Assembly (NCBI GenBank): GCA_016929795.1
Contig: JAFGIA010000332.1
Span: 1 to 37,405, forward strand
Source: Anaerolineae bacterium
GTDB lineage: Bacteria > Chloroflexota > Anaerolineae > JAAYZQ01
DNA: 37,405 bases
Reading direction: 5' to 3'
Each line of letters begins with the position of its first letter. Position 1 is the first letter of the stretch. Shown here one piece after another: positions 1-9,210 of this stretch. The translations under genes were made by a program, and so were the position numbers. The notes under the pieces are model-generated. The model made no database searches. It worked only from the letters and a program-made list of their open reading frames with translations, and was not told the DNA's origin.

Positions 1-711
1 GAAGCACTCGAGCTGCACATGGGCATGAAAAAAGAAGAGGCCCGCAAGCGCGCCGCCGAGCTGCTGGCGATGGTCGGCATTCCTGAGGCGGAGAACCGCC
101 TCGACGACTATCCCCACCAATTCTCTGGTGGCATGCGCCAGCGCGCCATGATCGCCATGGGCCTGGCCTGCAACCCACGCCTGCTCATCGCCGACGAGCC
201 GACCACGGCCCTCGACGTCACCATCCAGGCTCAGATCGTCGAGCTGGTCAAGCGCCTGCGCGACGAGATCGGCATGGCCATCATCTGGATCACCCACGAC
301 CTGGGTGTCGTCGCCGGCCTGGCCGACAGGATGATGGTTATGTATGCCGGGCACGCCGTCGAAGAGGCGCCCGTGAAGGAGGTGTACGCCGACCCGCGCC
401 ATCCCTATACCCTCGGCTTGCTCGGCTCGCTGCCCCGCCTCGACGAGGTGCGCAACGATCGGCTGGACTCGATCGAGGGCCTGCCGCCCGATCTGATCGC
501 CCTGCCGCCTGGTTGCCCCTTTGAGCCGCGCTGCATCTATGCCGTCGATCGCTGTCGCGAAGAGCGGCCCGAGCTGGAGCCTGTCGGCCCCAGGCACCGC
601 ATCGCGTGCTGGGTCGACGTCACTACGGCAGGCCCGACGCGAGGCAAAGACGAGGGCATGACATACAAGGGCTACCAGGAAACCAAGGAAGGGGCGAGCG
701 ACAATGAGTGA
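1..711 (+). CDS. Oligopeptide/dipeptide ABC transporter ATP-binding protein, OppD/DppD type (5' truncated)
   Basis: The frame is open to the left edge, so this is the C-terminal part of a gene that starts outside the window; the Walker A loop is missing for that reason. Visible are the ABC signature FSGGMRQR, Walker [13 protein letters not shown] and the H-loop region WITHDLGVV. The C-terminal oligopeptide-type extension follows, with spaced cysteines in [11 protein letters not shown] and ACW; related OppD/OppF proteins use such a cluster for an iron-sulfur site. As a cytoplasmic ATPase it would pair with the next gene to power a peptide-type importer. Its stop overlaps the next start by 8 bases, so the two are translationally coupled. 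The substrate cannot be told from the ATPase. Confidence 0.93.
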
Positions 712-1764: not shown

Positions 1765-1943
1765 AGGAATGCTTGATTCAAAGAGTATCCAATCCACCAT
1801 CCCGCCGGAGGGCACTGTTTTGGCTTCCGGGGTGACCTGGAAAGGGGGTGATGTAGCGGGTGAGGCTCGGTGAACAGGCTCCCGCGCCTGGCATGACCAA
1901 CTGGCAGTAAAGACAGCAAGAACATTGAATGAAGGAGGAGACA

Positions 1944-4583
1944 ATGTTGAACAAGAAATTGGCGGCCCTCATGGTCCTGGTGATGGTTGCCTCCCTGGTC
2001 CTCGCCGCTTGCGGCGCCACGCCCGCGCCGGCAGAGCCTGAGGTCATCATTCAGACCGTCGTGGTCGAGCAGACCCGCGAGGTCATTGTCGAGGGGACGC
2101 CCCAGACCGTGGTCGAGACTGTGGTCCAGACGGTCGAGGTCGAAAAAGAGGTCGAAAAAGAGGTTGTAGTTACGCCTACGCCCGTGCCCGTGGAGCGCAA
2201 CGGTGGCTGGCTTGACACGATCATCGTCGTCGAGGAGCCCAGTTCCGAAGCGGCTGTCAGCCGTATCCAGGCGGGTGAGCTCGACGTCTTTGCCTACACC
2301 GTGTCCGACTCGGAGCTCTTTGCCACCGTCGCGGCCGACCCGGACATGATCTACACCCAGTCGTACGGCTCTTACAACGAGCTGACGCTGAACCCCTGTG
2401 GCCCCGTCCTGACCACCACCAACACCCTCAACCCCATGGCTATCGCCGAGGTGCGCGAGGCGATGAACTGGCTGATCGACCGCAACTATATCGTGCAGGA
2501 GATCATGGGTGGCCTGGCCGTGCCCAAGTGGTTCCCCATCACCTCTGGCTTCCCCGACTATGCGCGCTATGTAGCCACAGCCCGCGAGCTTGAGGCCAAG
2601 TACGCCTACGATGTGGAAAAGGCGCGTACGGTCATTGCCGAGCAGATGGAGGCGAACGGCGCCGAGTTGGTCGACGGCAAGTGGCAGTACAACGGCGCGC
2701 CCGTGACCCTCATCTTTCTCATCCGCGTCGAGGACGAGCGCCGCGAGATCGGCGATTACGTCTCGAACCAGCTCGAGGACATTGGCTTTACTGTCGACCG
2801 CCAGTACAAGACCTCGGCCGAGGCCTCGCCTCTGTGGGTGAGCGGCAACCCGTGCGACGGGCAGTGGAACCTCTACACCGGTGGCTGGATCACCACCGCC
2901 ATCTCCCGCGATCAGGGCAGCAACTGGCTCTTCTTCTACAGCCCGCGTAGCGCCTACGGCTTTAGCCCGCTGTGGCAGAACTTTGACATCACGCCCGAGT
3001 TCGACGAGGCCCTCCTCGCGCTCAACAACAACGACTTTGCCAGCATGGAAGAGCGCGCCGAGCTGTTCCAGACGGCCATGACCCTGGGCCTGCAGTCCTC
3101 GAACCGCGTCTGGCTCGTCGACCGCAAGAGCTTTACCCCGCGCTCGGCGGATGTGGTTGTCACGGCTGACCTGGCCGGCGCCGTCGCCGGTTCCCGGCTC
3201 TACCCCTACACGCTGCGTTTCAAGGATCAAGTGGGTGGCTCGATGACCGTGGCCATGCCCAGCATCCTGACCCAGCCCATCAACCCCCCGGCCGGCAGCA
3301 ACTGGGTCTATGACACGGCCGTCCAGCGGCCCCTGGCCGACGTCGGCGTCATGCCCGACCCCTACACCGGCCTCTTCTGGCCGCAGCGCATCGAGTCGGC
3401 CATCTATACCGTGCAGGAAGGCCTGCCTGTGGACGTGACCCTCGACTGGGTGACCCTCGAGTTCGTGCCCGAGATCCCGGTGCCCGACGATGCCCTGGTC
3501 GACTGGGATGCGGCCAATCAGGTGTTCCTGACCGCCGCCGAGGTCTACACCGAGCCTCAGACGGCCCTCAGCAAGGTCGTCTTCACCTACGGAGCGGACC
3601 TGGCGGACTTGACCTGGCACGATGGCAGCCCCTTTGACGTCGCCGACTGGATGATGACTATGATCTACCAGTTCGACGTGTCCAAGCCGGAGAGCGCCAT
3701 CTATGACGAGGCGACCGTGGCTTCCCTGGAGACCTTCCTGTCCCACTTTAAGGGCTTCAAGATCCTCTCCGAGGATCCGCTGACCATCGAGTGGTACGAC
3801 GATGCCTACCAGCTCGACGCCGAATGGGGTGTCGCCAACGCGCTCACGTGGCCGAACTATGGCTACGGCGAGGCGGCCTGGCACAACATGGCCGTCAGCT
3901 ACCGCTCCGAGGCGGCCGGGGAGCTGGCCTACTCGGCGGACAAGGCCGATGCCCTCGAGATCGAGCAGATGAACTTTATCGGAGGCCCGAGCCTCGAGAT
4001 CCTGAACGCGCAGTTGGTTTCAGCCACGGCGGAGCTCTTTATCCCGTACGAGCCGACGATGGGCCAGTACATCACCGCCGAAGAGGCCGCCGCCCGCTAC
4101 ACCAACCTCGCGGAATGGTACCGGCGCTGGGGTCACTTCTTGATCGGCACCGGCCCCTACCGGCTGGAAGGTGTCTTCCCGGTTGAGGGCACGGTCATCC
4201 TGGCCCACAACGCCGCGTACATCGACCCGGCGGACAAGTGGTCCCAGTTTGCCGAGCCGATGCTCGCCGACGTCGAGATCGACGGCCCCGGACAGGTCAA
4301 GATCGGCGACGAGTCCACCTTTGACGTGTTCGTGACGTTCGGGGGCGAGCCCTACCCGGCCGACATGATCGGCGAGGTCAAGTGGCTGCTCTACGACGCC
4401 ACCGGCGCGCTGGCTGCGACTGGCATCGCCGAGAACGTGGCCGAGGGGCAATACGCGATCACGCTGACTGCCGAGCAGACGGGTGCGCTCGAGGCCGGCT
4501 CGAACAAGCTCGAGGTCGCGGTGGTGTCCAAGATCGTCAGCATCCCGACCTTTGGAACCTACGAGTTTGTGACGGCTCCCTAG
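1944..4583 (+). CDS. Family-5 extracellular solute-binding lipoprotein with circularly permuted motif order
   Basis: The start at ATG 1944 is chosen over the in-frame ATG 1929 because AGGAGG (1933-1938) lies 5 bases before it and inside the longer version. It encodes 879 aa: a hydrophobic signal ending in lipobox LVLAAC, then a low-complexity linker of Val/Glu/Thr repeats (about residues 25-85) typical of Chloroflexota binding proteins. The fold then starts with what is normally the SECOND half of an SBP_bac_5 protein: LDTIIVVEE (about 90), QAGELDVFAY, VREAMNWLIDR (about 170), YDVEKAR (about 222). What is normally the FIRST half follows: TWHDGSPFDVADW (His about 559) and IGTGPYRLEG (about 735). 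Residues about 780-879 look like an added beta-sandwich domain. It should present peptides or similar solutes to the downstream permeases. The family is clear; the permuted order is read from motif positions and needs a structural check. Confidence 0.9.
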   Translation: MLNKKLAALMVLVMVASLVLAACGATPAPAEPEVIIQTVVVEQTREVIVEGTPQTVVETVVQTVEVEKEVEKEVVVTPTPVPVERNGGWLDTIIVVEEPSSEAAVSRIQAGELDVFAYTVSDSELFATVAADPDMIYTQSYGSYNELTLNPCGPVLTTTNTLNPMAIAEVREAMNWLIDRNYIVQEIMGGLAVPKWFPITSGFPDYARYVATARELEAKYAYDVEKARTVIAEQMEANGAELVDGKWQYNGAPVTLIFLIRVEDERREIGDYVSNQLEDIGFTVDRQYKTSAEASPLWVSGNPCDGQWNLYTGGWITTAISRDQGSNWLFFYSPRSAYGFSPLWQNFDITPEFDEALLALNNNDFASMEERAELFQTAMTLGLQSSNRVWLVDRKSFTPRSADVVVTADLAGAVAGSRLYPYTLRFKDQVGGSMTVAMPSILTQPINPPAGSNWVYDTAVQRPLADVGVMPDPYTGLFWPQRIESAIYTVQEGLPVDVTLDWVTLEFVPEIPVPDDALVDWDAANQVFLTAAEVYTEPQTALSKVVFTYGADLADLTWHDGSPFDVADWMMTMIYQFDVSKPESAIYDEATVASLETFLSHFKGFKILSEDPLTIEWYDDAYQLDAEWGVANALTWPNYGYGEAAWHNMAVSYRSEAAGELAYSADKADALEIEQMNFIGGPSLEILNAQLVSATAELFIPYEPTMGQYITAEEAAARYTNLAEWYRRWGHFLIGTGPYRLEGVFPVEGTVILAHNAAYIDPADKWSQFAEPMLADVEIDGPGQVKIGDESTFDVFVTFGGEPYPADMIGEVKWLLYDATGALAATGIAENVAEGQYAITLTAEQTGALEAGSNKLEVAVVSKIVSIPTFGTYEFVTAP

Positions 4584-4618: not shown

Positions 4619-4658
4619 GAGCCCGATAGGGGAAGTGCAAGCGACCCCTATCGGGCTC
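4619..4658 (+). terminator. 14-bp stem-loop between binding protein and permease genes
   Basis: GAGCCCGATAGGGG (4619-4632) pairs perfectly with CCCCTATCGGGCTC (4645-4658) around a 12-base loop. There is no U-run after it. Placed between the binding-protein gene and the permeases of one operon, it is probably a transcript-stabilising or partial-termination hairpin that lets the binding protein be made in excess, as is common in such operons. Confidence 0.65.
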
Positions 4659-4702: not shown

Positions 4703-5857
4703 GTGAGTAGGAGTATGGCTGAAGCATCGTTATCGGTGGAGATGGGTGCCGAGCCAGAGGCCAAAACAGAAAAGAGGACGAGTACGTGGGCCCGGCTTGC
4801 CCGCTACACGGTGCTCCGGGCGATTGCCATTTTTCTCACCATCGTCGTGGCCATATACCTGTCGATCCTGATCGCCAACATGGGCGGTCACGTAGACAAC
4901 ATCCGCCGCGCCGAGATCCGTGAGCGGGTGGGCATGCAGGTCCTGGGTGACCCCAACATGACGCGTCTCCCGGAAGCGGAGCGCAACGCGTTGGTGTCCG
5001 ACATGATCGCCCTCCAGGAAAAGAGGCTCGGCCTCGACCGGCCGTTCATCCTGCGCAGCTTTGCCTACCTGGGCGACGCGCTGACGCTCAACCTCGGTCG
5101 CGCCGAGAATATGTTTAGCGACAGCGGTTCCAAAGAAGTGCGGCGGATCCTGCTGGAGCGCCTGCCGGCGACGCTGGTCATGTGGGGCCTGGCCAACTTT
5201 TTCCTCTTTTTCCTGGCCCTTTTCCTGGCGCTGGCCCTGTCTCGGCAGTACGGCAGTTGGTTCGACCGGGCCATCATTGCCCTGACGCCCACCTCCTCGG
5301 CGCCGGGCTGGTTCTATGGCCTCTTTCTGATCCTGATCTTTGCCGCCCTGCTGCGTATCCTGCCCTATGGCGGCATGGTCGATGCCCCGCCGCCCGAGAA
5401 CCCGGTCCAGTACGCCCTCAGCCTGGCAAAACACTTGATCCTGCCTGTGTCCGCCATCCTCATCTCCAGTCTCTTCCTGAGCGTCTACAACTGGCGCACC
5501 TTTTTCCTCATCTACTCCAGCGAGGATTATGTGGAGATGGCCCATGCCAAAGGGCTTTCGGACCGCGAGATCGAGCGCCGCTATGTCCTGCGCCCGACCC
5601 TGCCGACGATCATCACCTCCTTTGCCCTGACCCTGATCACGCTCTGGACGGGGGCCATTATCCTCGAGACGGTCTTTAACTGGCCCGGGCTGGGCAAGGT
5701 CTTTTACCAGGCCATTGGCCTCTACGACACACCGGTGATCATTGGCAATACGGTCATCTATGCCTACCTGTTGGGCATCACTGTCTTTTTGCTTGATTTT
5801 GTCTATGCCCTGGTCGATCCCCGAGTCCGCGTTGGGGAAGGAGGGAAGAAAGCGTGA
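4703..5857 (+). CDS. ABC transporter permease, DppB/OppB type
   Basis: Up to 384 aa. A polar N-terminal tail precedes a first membrane span (about residues 37-58), then an extracytoplasmic loop with the family pattern LGLDRP, LNLG and LLERLPATLVMW, and further spans. The ATPase-coupling EAA loop reads EMAHAKGLSDREIERRYVLRP, followed by the final pair of spans and the typical end DFVYALVDPRVRVGEG. The start is uncertain: GTG 4703 has a weak purine tract upstream, whereas ATG 4715 has GGAG only one base away. It would form the transmembrane heterodimer with the next gene, which overlaps it by 4 bases (GTGA). It is somewhat longer than usual because of the N-terminal tail and first loop. Confidence 0.93.
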   Translation: MSRSMAEASLSVEMGAEPEAKTEKRTSTWARLARYTVLRAIAIFLTIVVAIYLSILIANMGGHVDNIRRAEIRERVGMQVLGDPNMTRLPEAERNALVSDMIALQEKRLGLDRPFILRSFAYLGDALTLNLGRAENMFSDSGSKEVRRILLERLPATLVMWGLANFFLFFLALFLALALSRQYGSWFDRAIIALTPTSSAPGWFYGLFLILIFAALLRILPYGGMVDAPPPENPVQYALSLAKHLILPVSAILISSLFLSVYNWRTFFLIYSSEDYVEMAHAKGLSDREIERRYVLRPTLPTIITSFALTLITLWTGAIILETVFNWPGLGKVFYQAIGLYDTPVIIGNTVIYAYLLGITVFLLDFVYALVDPRVRVGEGGKKA

Positions 5858-7194
5858 GTGGTATTCTGAATTCTCTGCGCGAGCTGCGGCGCTATCCTTC
5901 TGCCGTGTTTGGCCTGTTGATCATCCTCCTCCTGGTCATCCTGGCCCTCTATACCGTGGTCGCCATGCCCTACAGCGAGGCTGTGCGCAAATGGCGTGGC
6001 GGGGAAGAGATCTGGTACAACAGCCCCAAGAACGCCTCGCCCGCCTGGACCAACCTGTTCCGCCGCCAGGACCTGCCCGAGACGATCGTGATAAACACGG
6101 GGGAGCGTGGCGTCAAAGGCGAGCATGAGGTGGTGACGGAGGAGATGACCAGGATCCCCATCATCTTTACCTTCGACTATCCCTACGAGGGCTTTCCCCA
6201 GGAGCTGACCATCTACTTTCAGTCCAGCTACGTGTCCAAGACCCCCTTCGTCTCGGCCGCCTTGCTCACGCCCGATGGCCGGGAGCTCCGAATTGGCGAT
6301 CTCTCTGTAAGCACACGGACGACGTACCGCATCTCTCAGGATGAAAAGCTGCAGCGCCGGCTTGGGGGCCAGCTACCGCACATCGGCCTTTTTGCCGATC
6401 CCGAGGCGCCGAATAGTGCACTCCAGGGCACCTACAGCCTGGTGCTCGACACGCTCGTTTTCGAGCCCGAGGCCGACGTCGATGCCGAGTTGGTGATCTA
6501 TGGCCAGGTGGGCGGCCTGGGTGGCACCGACCACCGCCGCCGCGACCTGATGATCGCCCTGCTGTGGGGCACGCCCATCGCCCTCTCCTTCGGCCTGTTG
6601 GCCGCCGTCGGCACCTCCCTGACCACCATGATCATCGCCGGCGTCGGCACCTGGTTCGGAGGCTGGGTCGACGCCGTCATCCAGCGCATCACCGAAGTGA
6701 ACATGATCCTGCCCTTCTTGCCGATTCTGATCATGATCGGGACCTTCTATTCGAGGAGCCTGTGGGTGATCCTGGGCGTCGTCATCGTGCTCAGCATTTT
6801 TGGGTCTGCGATCAAGACCTACCGGGCTATCTTTTTGCAGGTCAAAGAGTCGCCCTACATCGAGGCGGCCAAGGCCTATGGTGCGACCAGCACCCGCCTC
6901 ATCTTCCGCTACCTGATCCCGCGCATCATGCCCTTGATCATCCCTCAGCTCGTGGTGACCATCCCCGCCTATGTCTTTCTGGAGGCCTCTCTGGCGCTGC
7001 TGGGCCTGGGCGATCCGATCCTGCCCACCTGGGGCAAGATCATCAACGAGGCATACGCCAACGGTGCCCTCTACCAGGGGCAGTACTACTGGGTGCTCGA
7101 GCCCGCTGTCTTGTTGATGGTGACCGGGCTGGCCTTTGCCCTGGTGGGCTTTTCCCTGGACCGGATCTTTAACCCAAAGCTGAGAGGGCTGTGA
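5854..7194 (+). CDS. ABC transporter permease, DppC/OppC type, with large extracytoplasmic insertion
   Basis: 446 aa, about 130-150 more than usual for DppC. The first membrane span is at about residues 18-38. The family landmark normally written GTDxxGRD appears only at GGTDHRRRD (223-231), followed by five further spans and the EAA loop EAAKAYGATSTRLIFRYLIP. Residues about 45-220 are an extra beta-rich segment (for example FDYPYEGFPQELTIYFQSS) that should sit outside the membrane, facing the binding protein. GTG 5854 overlaps the upstream stop as GTGA, so translation is coupled. The family is secure; contact between the insertion and the permuted binding protein is only an inference. Confidence 0.93.
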   Translation: MSGILNSLRELRRYPSAVFGLLIILLLVILALYTVVAMPYSEAVRKWRGGEEIWYNSPKNASPAWTNLFRRQDLPETIVINTGERGVKGEHEVVTEEMTRIPIIFTFDYPYEGFPQELTIYFQSSYVSKTPFVSAALLTPDGRELRIGDLSVSTRTTYRISQDEKLQRRLGGQLPHIGLFADPEAPNSALQGTYSLVLDTLVFEPEADVDAELVIYGQVGGLGGTDHRRRDLMIALLWGTPIALSFGLLAAVGTSLTTMIIAGVGTWFGGWVDAVIQRITEVNMILPFLPILIMIGTFYSRSLWVILGVVIVLSIFGSAIKTYRAIFLQVKESPYIEAAKAYGATSTRLIFRYLIPRIMPLIIPQLVVTIPAYVFLEASLALLGLGDPILPTWGKIINEAYANGALYQGQYYWVLEPAVLLMVTGLAFALVGFSLDRIFNPKLRGL

Positions 7195-7198
7195 CATC

Positions 7199-8161
7199 AT
7201 GACTCAGAGCTTTAATGCATTGCTAACCGTCAAGGATCTCACGCTCCACTTTCGCACGACGAAAGGGGCCGTCCAGGCGGTGGATGGTGTGGACTTTGAT
7301 CTGGGATACAATGAGGCGGTGGTCGTCCTGGGAGAATCAGGGTGTGGCAAGACGTCGCTGGCCAAAGCCATTTTGCGCCTGTTGCCCCGGAACGTGGGTA
7401 CCTACAGCGGTGAGGTGTACCTCGCCGGGCAGGAGCTGATGGCGCTGAGTGACGACGAGTTCCGGCAGAATGTGCGCTGGGTCGAGATGTCGCTCGTGCC
7501 CCAGGCGGCCATGAATGCCCTGAACCCGGTGCTGCGCGTCGGCGACCAGGTGGCCGAGCCCATGATCGTGCACCACGCCATGAACAAGAAGGAAGCGATG
7601 GAGCAGGCGCGCCGCATGTTTCAGCACGTAGGTGTGCCCGAGGGCTTTATGAGCCGCTATGCCTTCGAGCTGAGTGGCGGCATGCGCCAGCGCGTGGCCA
7701 TTGCCATGTCGCTCGTCACCGCGCCGAGCCTGGTTGTCCTGGACGAGCCCACCTCGGCCCTCGACGTGCTCACCCAGGCCAACATCTTTAACGTCCTCAA
7801 GCGCATCAAGCAGGAGCTGGAGGTCAGCTTTATCCTGATCACCCACGACATTGCCACCTCGAGTGAGCTGGCCGACAGGGTGGCCGTGATGTACGCCGGG
7901 CAGATGGTCGAGACGAGCGACGCGCGCCGCTTTTTCACCGAGCCGCTCCACCCCTACTCGCAGAAGCTGATGGCCAGCGTGCCCCGGCTGCGGGCCGATA
8001 CCGAGCCCGACTTTATTGTCGGCCAGCCGCCCAGCCTGCTCAATCCACCCACCGGCTGCCGGTTCCGAGATCGCTGTCCTTCCCGCTTTGACCGCTGCGA
8101 CGAAGAGCCGCCCATGTTTGGCTCGCACCGGCGTTTGGTCAAGTGCTGGCTGTACGACTAA
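7199..8161 (+). CDS. Oligopeptide/dipeptide ABC transporter ATP-binding protein, OppD/DppD type
   Basis: 320 aa. Walker A GESGCGKTS starts at residue 45, with signature LSGGMRQRVAIAMS, Walker B LVVLDEPTSALD and switch histidine in LITHDIATSS. The C-terminal extension carries the cysteine cluster GCRFRDRC, RC and KCW seen in oligopeptide-type ATPases. It begins 4 bases after the permease stop and belongs to the same operon as the permuted binding protein. With the next gene it forms the asymmetric cytoplasmic motor. It is similar in design to the truncated gene at the left edge, so the window holds two paralogous systems. Confidence 0.95.
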   Translation: MTQSFNALLTVKDLTLHFRTTKGAVQAVDGVDFDLGYNEAVVVLGESGCGKTSLAKAILRLLPRNVGTYSGEVYLAGQELMALSDDEFRQNVRWVEMSLVPQAAMNALNPVLRVGDQVAEPMIVHHAMNKKEAMEQARRMFQHVGVPEGFMSRYAFELSGGMRQRVAIAMSLVTAPSLVVLDEPTSALDVLTQANIFNVLKRIKQELEVSFILITHDIATSSELADRVAVMYAGQMVETSDARRFFTEPLHPYSQKLMASVPRLRADTEPDFIVGQPPSLLNPPTGCRFRDRCPSRFDRCDEEPPMFGSHRRLVKCWLYD

Positions 8162-8181
8162 AACCAGGCTAGGAGTGTAGT

Positions 8182-9210
8182 ATGTCGTCGAACACTGATG
8201 TTCCGGAAACAACCGTAGCCGTGGGCGGCAACGGATCTGATCCCCTGCTTTCAATCCAGGATCTACACGTCTGGTTCGAGCTGCGGCGTTTTGGCTTTGG
8301 ACATGCAGGCTATGTCCGGGCCGTCGATGGCGTGAGCTTTGACCTGGCCAAGGGAGAAGCGGTGGGCGTCGTCGGCGAGAGCGGCTGTGGCAAAACGACG
8401 CTGATGAAGACGATCCTGGGGCTGAACCCGATCACCGAGGGCCAGATCCTGTTCAACGGGGATCGGATCAGCCAGTTGAGCACGCGCGAGCTGCAAGCTT
8501 ACCGTGCGCAGGTCGGATACGTGCAGCAGGATCCCTACGGCGCCTTGCCGCCCTTTATGAGCGTGCGCACCATCCTCGAAGAGCCGATGATCGTCAATGG
8601 CGTCAAGGACAAAGAAGTGCGCCTGCGGCGCATCGTCAGGGCGCTCGAAGAGGTCAAAATGACCCCTGTCGAGGACTTTATGGCCAAGTTCCCCCACATG
8701 CTCAGTGGCGGGCAGCAGCAGCGTATCGTCATTGCCCGGGCCATGGTCATGGAGCCCAAGCTGATCGTCGCCGACGAGCCGGTTTCGATGCTCGATGCCT
8801 CGGTGCGCGTCGAGATCCTCAGGCTGCTGCGCAAATTGCAGGAGGAGCACCACCTGGCGGTGATCTATATCACCCACGACCTGTCGACGGTGCGCTACTT
8901 CTCGGAGCGCATCTTTGTGATGTACGCCGCCAGGATGGCCGAAAAGGCGCCGGTGGATGACCTGCTGCGCAATCCTCTCCACCCCTACACCCACGCCCTG
9001 CTCGAGGCCACCTCGGACCCCAACTATGAGAATGCGCTCACCTTCAAGGATATCCCACCCGGCGAGCCACCGAGCCTGATTCAACCACCTCCTGGCTGCC
9101 GCTTCCACCCGCGCTGTCCCCACTTTATAGAGGGGCTGTGCAACGACCAGGAGCCTCCGGACTTTGAGCCGGAGCCGCGTCACCTGGTGGCGTGTTGGTT
9201 ATACAAATGA
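8182..9210 (+). CDS. Oligopeptide/dipeptide ABC transporter ATP-binding protein, OppF/DppF type
   Basis: 342 aa. A polar N-terminal tail of about 20 residues is followed by Walker A GESGCGKTT (65-73), signature LSGGQQQRIVIARAM, Walker B LIVADEPVSMLD and H-loop YITHDLSTV. The C-terminal extension again has the cysteine pattern GCRFHPRC, LC and ACW. ATG 8182 is preceded by AGGAG in the 20-base gap after the OppD-type gene. It is the partner ATPase of the second operon. Its stop overlaps the start of a small membrane protein gene (ATGA at 9207-9210). Confidence 0.95.
   Translation: MSSNTDVPETTVAVGGNGSDPLLSIQDLHVWFELRRFGFGHAGYVRAVDGVSFDLAKGEAVGVVGESGCGKTTLMKTILGLNPITEGQILFNGDRISQLSTRELQAYRAQVGYVQQDPYGALPPFMSVRTILEEPMIVNGVKDKEVRLRRIVRALEEVKMTPVEDFMAKFPHMLSGGQQQRIVIARAMVMEPKLIVADEPVSMLDASVRVEILRLLRKLQEEHHLAVIYITHDLSTVRYFSERIFVMYAARMAEKAPVDDLLRNPLHPYTHALLEATSDPNYENALTFKDIPPGEPPSLIQPPPGCRFHPRCPHFIEGLCNDQEPPDFEPEPRHLVACWLYK

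Follow-up and report, generated by a model that had tools for sequence, protein, structure and literature searches.

Organization of the locus

The window analyzed here is the whole of a 37,405-nucleotide stretch from an Anaerolineae bacterium (assembly GCA_016929795.1, contig JAFGIA010000332.1, positions 1–37,405, forward strand). An open reading frame of 879 residues (1944–4583, +) encodes a binding protein, hereafter the window protein. Upstream lie an ATPase subunit gene that is probably cut by the start of the window (19–711, +; oligo_HPY, and ABC_tran at profile positions 80–137 only) and a gene for an OppF/DppF-like ATPase (704–1681, +; ABC_tran and oligo_HPY), the latter followed by a perfect 20-nt inverted repeat (1687–1727). 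Downstream, a perfect 14-nt inverted repeat (4619–4658) separates the binding-protein gene from those of a DppB-like permease (4703–5857, +; BPD_transp_1) and a DppC-like permease (5854–7194, +; BPD_transp_1 and OppC_N), and these precede two ATPase genes, DppD-like (7199–8161, +) and DppF-like (8182–9210, +) by position, both with ABC_tran and oligo_HPY matches. Opp-type ATPase genes, four in all, thus flank the binding-protein and permease genes on both sides (19–1681 and 7199–9210). In its gene context, with DppB/C permease genes and oligo_HPY ATPase genes beside it, the window protein agrees with SBP_bac_5 (family 5, cluster C) binding proteins.

Translation of the window protein likely starts at the ATG at 1944, because a ribosome-binding-like sequence, GAAGGAGGAG, can be read at 1931–1940 (+); a second in-frame ATG is present ahead of it, at 1929. 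From its N terminus, the protein comprises a lipoprotein signal, a linker of low complexity, the family-5 binding domain, and the C-terminal sandwich. The signal peptide (1944–2012, +) ends in the lipobox LAAC, whose Cys23 is invariant in 57 alignment rows, and is followed by a Val/Glu/Pro/Thr linker (residues 24–87; 2013–2204, +), with model pLDDT below 50 at residues 16–53 and 55–78. Half A (residues 88–427; 2205–3224, +) is equivalent to what is normally the C-terminal portion of a family-5 binding protein, and half B (residues 433–771; 3240–4256, +) to the N-terminal portion. Between them, the joining loop DQVGG (residues 428–432; 3225–3239, +) leads from the old C terminus to the old N terminus, and its G431 and G432 are invariant in the 57 aligned rows. 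An Ig/macroglobulin-like β-sandwich (residues 772–879; 4257–4580, +) completes the chain.

The window protein as a candidate circular permutant

The first-pass annotation had proposed a true circular permutation from the order of the family motifs. All the motifs it named were found once and in the claimed order: LDTII at residue 90, GELDVFAY at 111, VREAM at 170, YDVEKA at 222, WHDG at 558, and GTGPY at 735. This order is not due to chance: it is kept in the listed co-linear relatives, which are 52 to 86% identical to the window protein. The position of the cut had to be corrected: rather than directly after GTGPY, it lies about 30 residues further, separating the stretch that ends near DKW (764) from the LDTI strand. 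The added C-terminal sandwich was borne out by the predicted structure model.

The Pfam family PF00496 matched the window protein with 97.4 bits (cut-off 32.4) in two stretches, the best of which (residues 90–331) corresponds to profile positions 148–362 of 368. A single co-linear match over residues 90–770 was looked for and is absent, and no other Pfam domain was detected on the protein at E values up to 1. In relatives from two further genomes, the PF00496 pieces are likewise swapped (profile 146–355 then 25–152 in G026; 146–354 then 26–150 in G048). A profile built from 57 relatives gave the same picture on the solved OppA 7fi3: profile positions 494–750 aligned with chain residues 63–309 (i-E 3.9e-13), and positions 83–328 with residues 324–588 (i-E 2.4e-30). 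The phmmer comparison of the window protein with 7fi3 also returned swapped stretches, half B being weak on its own (i-E 1.4). The old termini are joined directly (TLRF-KDQVGG-SMTVAM). Once rotated to the normal order, the window protein aligned unbroken across the artificial junction at residue 348 with all 25 of the plasmid matches listed; these matches (27 records in all, 12 of them from one genus) are weak, with 23 to 29% identity.

The predicted structures agree with this layout. The full-chain model reached a pLDDT of 89.0 and a pTM of 0.83, and the model of half B a pLDDT of 94.4. The halves of the predicted models, matched to OppA separately rather than in a joint permutation-aware superposition, tile 7fi3 in a complementary manner, at residues 34–347 and 332–754. 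In the fold-match list for half B, 7fi3 was the sole family-5 entry among the matches listed, the others matching residues 772–879.

Two PF00496 stretches in one protein could also come from a head-to-tail fusion of two partial or complete binding domains, and an intermediate of permutation would look alike. Yet each diagnostic motif is present in a single copy, the stretches cover complementary rather than repeated parts of 7fi3, and their combined length of ~690 residues fits one OppA of 724 residues. Given this complementary coverage and the lack of a second WHDG or GTGPY, we rejected the fusion, which we consider highly improbable; two complete binding domains are ruled out on the same grounds. 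The window protein instead contains one complete domain whose pieces are exchanged at a single cut. It passes the PF00496 cut-off and is predicted to have the two-lobed OppA/DppA fold but lacks the normal linear order, and is therefore a permuted variant and not a standard SBP_bac_5 member. Together, the sequence comparisons and the models indicate that it is almost certainly a true circular permutant within the family-5 (cluster C) binding proteins of ABC importers.

Conservation of the permuted order and of the neighboring genes

Of 7994 scored candidates, 2939 were related to the window protein at an E value of 1e-5, and among the best 120 of these homologs, 117 keep its native order in an alignment that covers 90% or more of the query. 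Two of the 120 listed (P0060 and P0067) carry a fasciclin insert with the motif order unchanged, and another (P0022) is a fragment of 512 residues. We refer to this family as type i. Relatives are encoded by 469 stretches of genome contigs, of which the best 80 were taken further. By label, 77 of these loci belong to Chloroflexota or its groups, two (L059 and L060) are named "bacterium," and one (L065) is assigned to Bacillota. All 77 loci that could be parsed (the exceptions being L002, L007, and L014) matched the native order in one blastp HSP each, which is the order that the first-pass annotation had proposed to look for in other Chloroflexota.

These loci also bear on the possibility that neighboring gene pieces were merged by an assembly, binning, or gene-calling artifact, which is conceivable as the sources are mostly metagenome assemblies. 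However, the 77 parsed loci come from nearly all different assemblies, including that of a named strain, Bellilinea caldifistulae GOMI-1; the order is conserved at the identities given above, and the whole-chain model is of high confidence. On these three grounds we rejected an artifact, the least probable of the alternatives by our estimate, and retained the permutation.

The spread of type i was assessed in two genome sets. In 61 Chloroflexota genomes, both halves were found in one frame in six, always A then B; a divergent gene in a further genome (G068; E 1.4e-41) was read as permuted, and no close relative of type i in normal order was detected in the set. Fifteen further weak matches were listed (E 2.7e-7 or worse), six of which cross the junction and nine of which cover half A only. 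In a sample of 201 genomes of the phylum, matches covered both halves in 18 (E 1e-10) out of 21 matched, G188 and G218 being left out as half A only and G134 as tail only. The frames of G188 and G218 (L130 and L131) end in the type i tail.

The genetic setting is as constant as the order. Of 75 eligible loci, 74 have DppB after the type i gene and 73 have DppC, an arrangement identical to that of the window, and a lipobox-like motif is present in 70 of 77 type i frames. These figures speak against the permuted fold serving as a receptor or scaffold instead of an importer part, an idea prompted by two loci (L069 and L075) in which the type i domain follows a Ser/Thr kinase, with no permease detected beside L075. 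For the window protein we regard such a role as improbable and favor that of an importer component. The two kinase-fused relatives indicate that the type i domain is not always part of a transporter.

Two further permuted families in Chloroflexota

The permutation reading of the first-pass annotation stood but proved incomplete, since the phylum contains two further permutants cut elsewhere, in two cases within the same genome. In Bellilinea caldifistulae, ten PF00496 matches represent seven proteins. The order is normal in L081, L083, and L085, and the other four are permuted: one of type i (L088, whole in L019), two of type ii (L089 and L090), and one of type iii (L086, whose gene start lies beyond the contig end). 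The type ii cut lies between residues 125 and 126 of HbpA (3tpa), and that of type iii between 311 and 322 of 2d5w. The loop at the old termini is short in both families, DPGGR in type ii and IPGKD in type iii. By eye, a permease-like ORF follows one type ii gene and the type iii gene of Bellilinea; no permease was found at the locus of the second type ii gene (L089).

The swapped order was verified with our own HMM, built from 13 normal-order Chloroflexota proteins. It was swapped in 120 of 120 type ii proteins, and rotation raised the score in all of them (median, 260 to 326 bits). For type iii, 110 of 120 proteins were swapped under a strict no-overlap rule, the other ten being swapped with an overlap of more than 25 profile positions. 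None of five held-out normal-order proteins was swapped. This HMM is too far removed from type i to pick up half B, which went undetected in the 121 type i proteins; none of them scored as swapped, 111 giving a single stretch, nine an extra match in the signal-peptide region, and one no match. Rotation of the 100 of these 121 proteins with motifs located raised the bits in 92, while coverage rose only from 0.51 to 0.52. Sequence doubling did not merge the matches, because the signal and linker sit between the copies.

In the samples of 201 genomes, both halves of type ii were found in 26 (E 1e-80) and both halves of type iii in 16 (E 1e-40; 7 of the 23 matched genomes had half A only and were left out); the E limits thus differ among the three types (1e-10, 1e-80, and 1e-40 for types i, ii, and iii). 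At least one permuted type is carried by 41 of the 201 genomes, a union counted by hand assuming the same genomes across the samples. On the same assumption, all three types occur in G001 and G026; in G026 they lie on one 4.4-Mb contig.

Number of origins

After rotation, the median best scores of the permutants to normal-order proteins were 28 (type i), 205 (type ii), and 143 bits (type iii), and those between permutants were 9 to 44 bits. In a tree of 39 rows (five of each permuted type and 24 in normal order), type ii grouped with the normal-order L100 (97/95) and type iii with the normal-order L085 (100/98), and a single clade of all permutants was rejected (p-AU 0.007; pairs of types not separately tested). 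The placement of type i was weak (52/0), on a long branch of the kind that the program warned of. As the nearest normal-order partners differ and one clade is rejected, separate origins of types ii and iii have good support, while that of type i has less.

A single permutation ancestral to all three families, with the cut sites changed later, would fit their occurrence in the same phylum and the short loop that they share at the old termini, and the long branches weaken the placement of type i. We nevertheless find it unlikely, given the different normal-order partners of types ii and iii, the p-AU value, and scores that are higher to normal-order proteins than between permutants. The rearrangements at the different sites were thus most likely independent. 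Overall, we think it probable that family-5 proteins of Chloroflexota were independently permuted at least three times, at three sites of the fold, and that the new termini serve to attach lipid anchors, a C-terminal membrane helix, additional binding domains, and, twice, a membrane Ser/Thr kinase.

New termini, fusions, and insertions

Each kinase frame (L075, 4807–8484; L069, 51–3395) joins a Ser/Thr kinase domain, a membrane-helix-like stretch, and the type i domain. Neither locus had DppB, DppC, or ATPase matches, the downstream sequence of L069 being too short for the permease count; the contig start truncates the L069 kinase frame, and two more type i genes lie in a row in this locus. 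In a divergent type i protein (L111, frame from 1587, +), the lipobox is missing and the sandwich is followed by a terminal membrane helix. G118 and G212 contain near copies of it (81% and 98%, respectively), and a relative in G220 (53%) likewise has a hydrophobic helix at its end. This helix and the kinase fusions suggest that the anchor can be provided by either new terminus.

Type ii is fused at its new N terminus to a family-3 binding domain in L106 (401–2899, −) and L109 (622–3000, −) and to a Peripla_BP_6 domain in P0218. Another type ii frame (L110, 486–2558, −) has a stretch that looks LysM-like by eye and is absent from the Pfam matches. In type i, fasciclin (P0067 and P0060) or a long alanine-rich stretch (L130) is inserted just before the WHDG strand, a site that is perhaps an insertion hot spot.

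Partial proteins were also observed. Lipoproteins of ~270 amino acids (L135, 3063–3875, +; L136, 3236–4060, −) contain the family-5 N-terminal part only and end at the type i cut; frames of similar length with only the start of PF00496 were found in five of five genomes searched, one with an internal TAA. Conversely, a 300–amino acid ORF (L140, 2267–3169, −) contains the C-terminal part only and begins near the type iii cut.

Discussion

Sequence and predicted structure show that the chain of the window protein begins with the strand that in ordinary proteins comes after the GTGPY module, continues to the old C terminus, crosses the five-residue loop to the old N terminus, and closes with the GTGPY module and then the extra β-sandwich. 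It would still adopt the usual two-lobed clamshell fold, and may bind a peptide-like or other small ligand and pass it to the adjacent DppB/C permeases. Tandem duplication followed by truncation is a textbook route to circular permutation. As the old termini are neighbors, the gene could have arisen in this way, by an in-frame tandem duplication and loss of the front of the first copy and the back of the second. The lipid tether would then enter the fold at a different place than in ordinary proteins. On the domain boundaries that we assume for OppA, the type ii cut lies in domain II, the type i cut in domain I, and the type iii cut at the domain I/III boundary, so that each would place the tether elsewhere.

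Family-5 proteins are very common bacterial receptors, and the window protein is a new, recurrent variant of them. Three cut sites within a single phylum, most likely of independent origin, amount to natural replicates. They can be used to ask where a two-lobed receptor accepts new termini, whether docking depends on the position of the membrane tether, and how permutations come about. If our reading is true, permutation would be a recurring means of moving the tether of a cell-surface receptor and not a one-off accident. In practice, an odd motif order or split Pfam matches in such genomes need not be errors.

Among known proteins, the OppA of Thermococcus kodakarensis (7fi3) is the best relative of both halves by sequence and fold and is similarly long; unlike the window protein, it has the normal order, and the C-terminal sandwich has no alignment to it. 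Relative to Escherichia coli DppA (1dpp), the order is swapped and DppA is shorter. All seven solved chains with two-stretch alignments to permuted proteins, among the matches listed, are in normal order. Types ii (P0122) and iii (P0242) share with the window protein the Pfam family, the swapped order, the short loop at the old termini, and the phylum, but have other cuts and are closer to normal-order proteins than to type i.

Betaine-binding proteins show an OpuAC-type permutation. A search for it in PMC2861598 and PMC9732360 gave nothing, and the full-text literature searched, which leaves most subscription journals outside, yielded no natural permutant of family 5. The closest parallel in that literature is TpMglB-2 (Tp0684) of Treponema pallidum, described in PMC4990184 as a natural circular permutant and a membrane-tethered lipoprotein of cluster B. 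It differs from the window protein in its cluster B sugar-binding fold, family, and cut, and no cluster B (Peripla_BP) domain was found on the window protein, PF00496 being its only match at E values up to 1. Both are nonetheless natural permutations in membrane-tethered binding lipoproteins, and the authors of the TpMglB-2 study suggest that its permutation is linked to tethering (PMC4990184).
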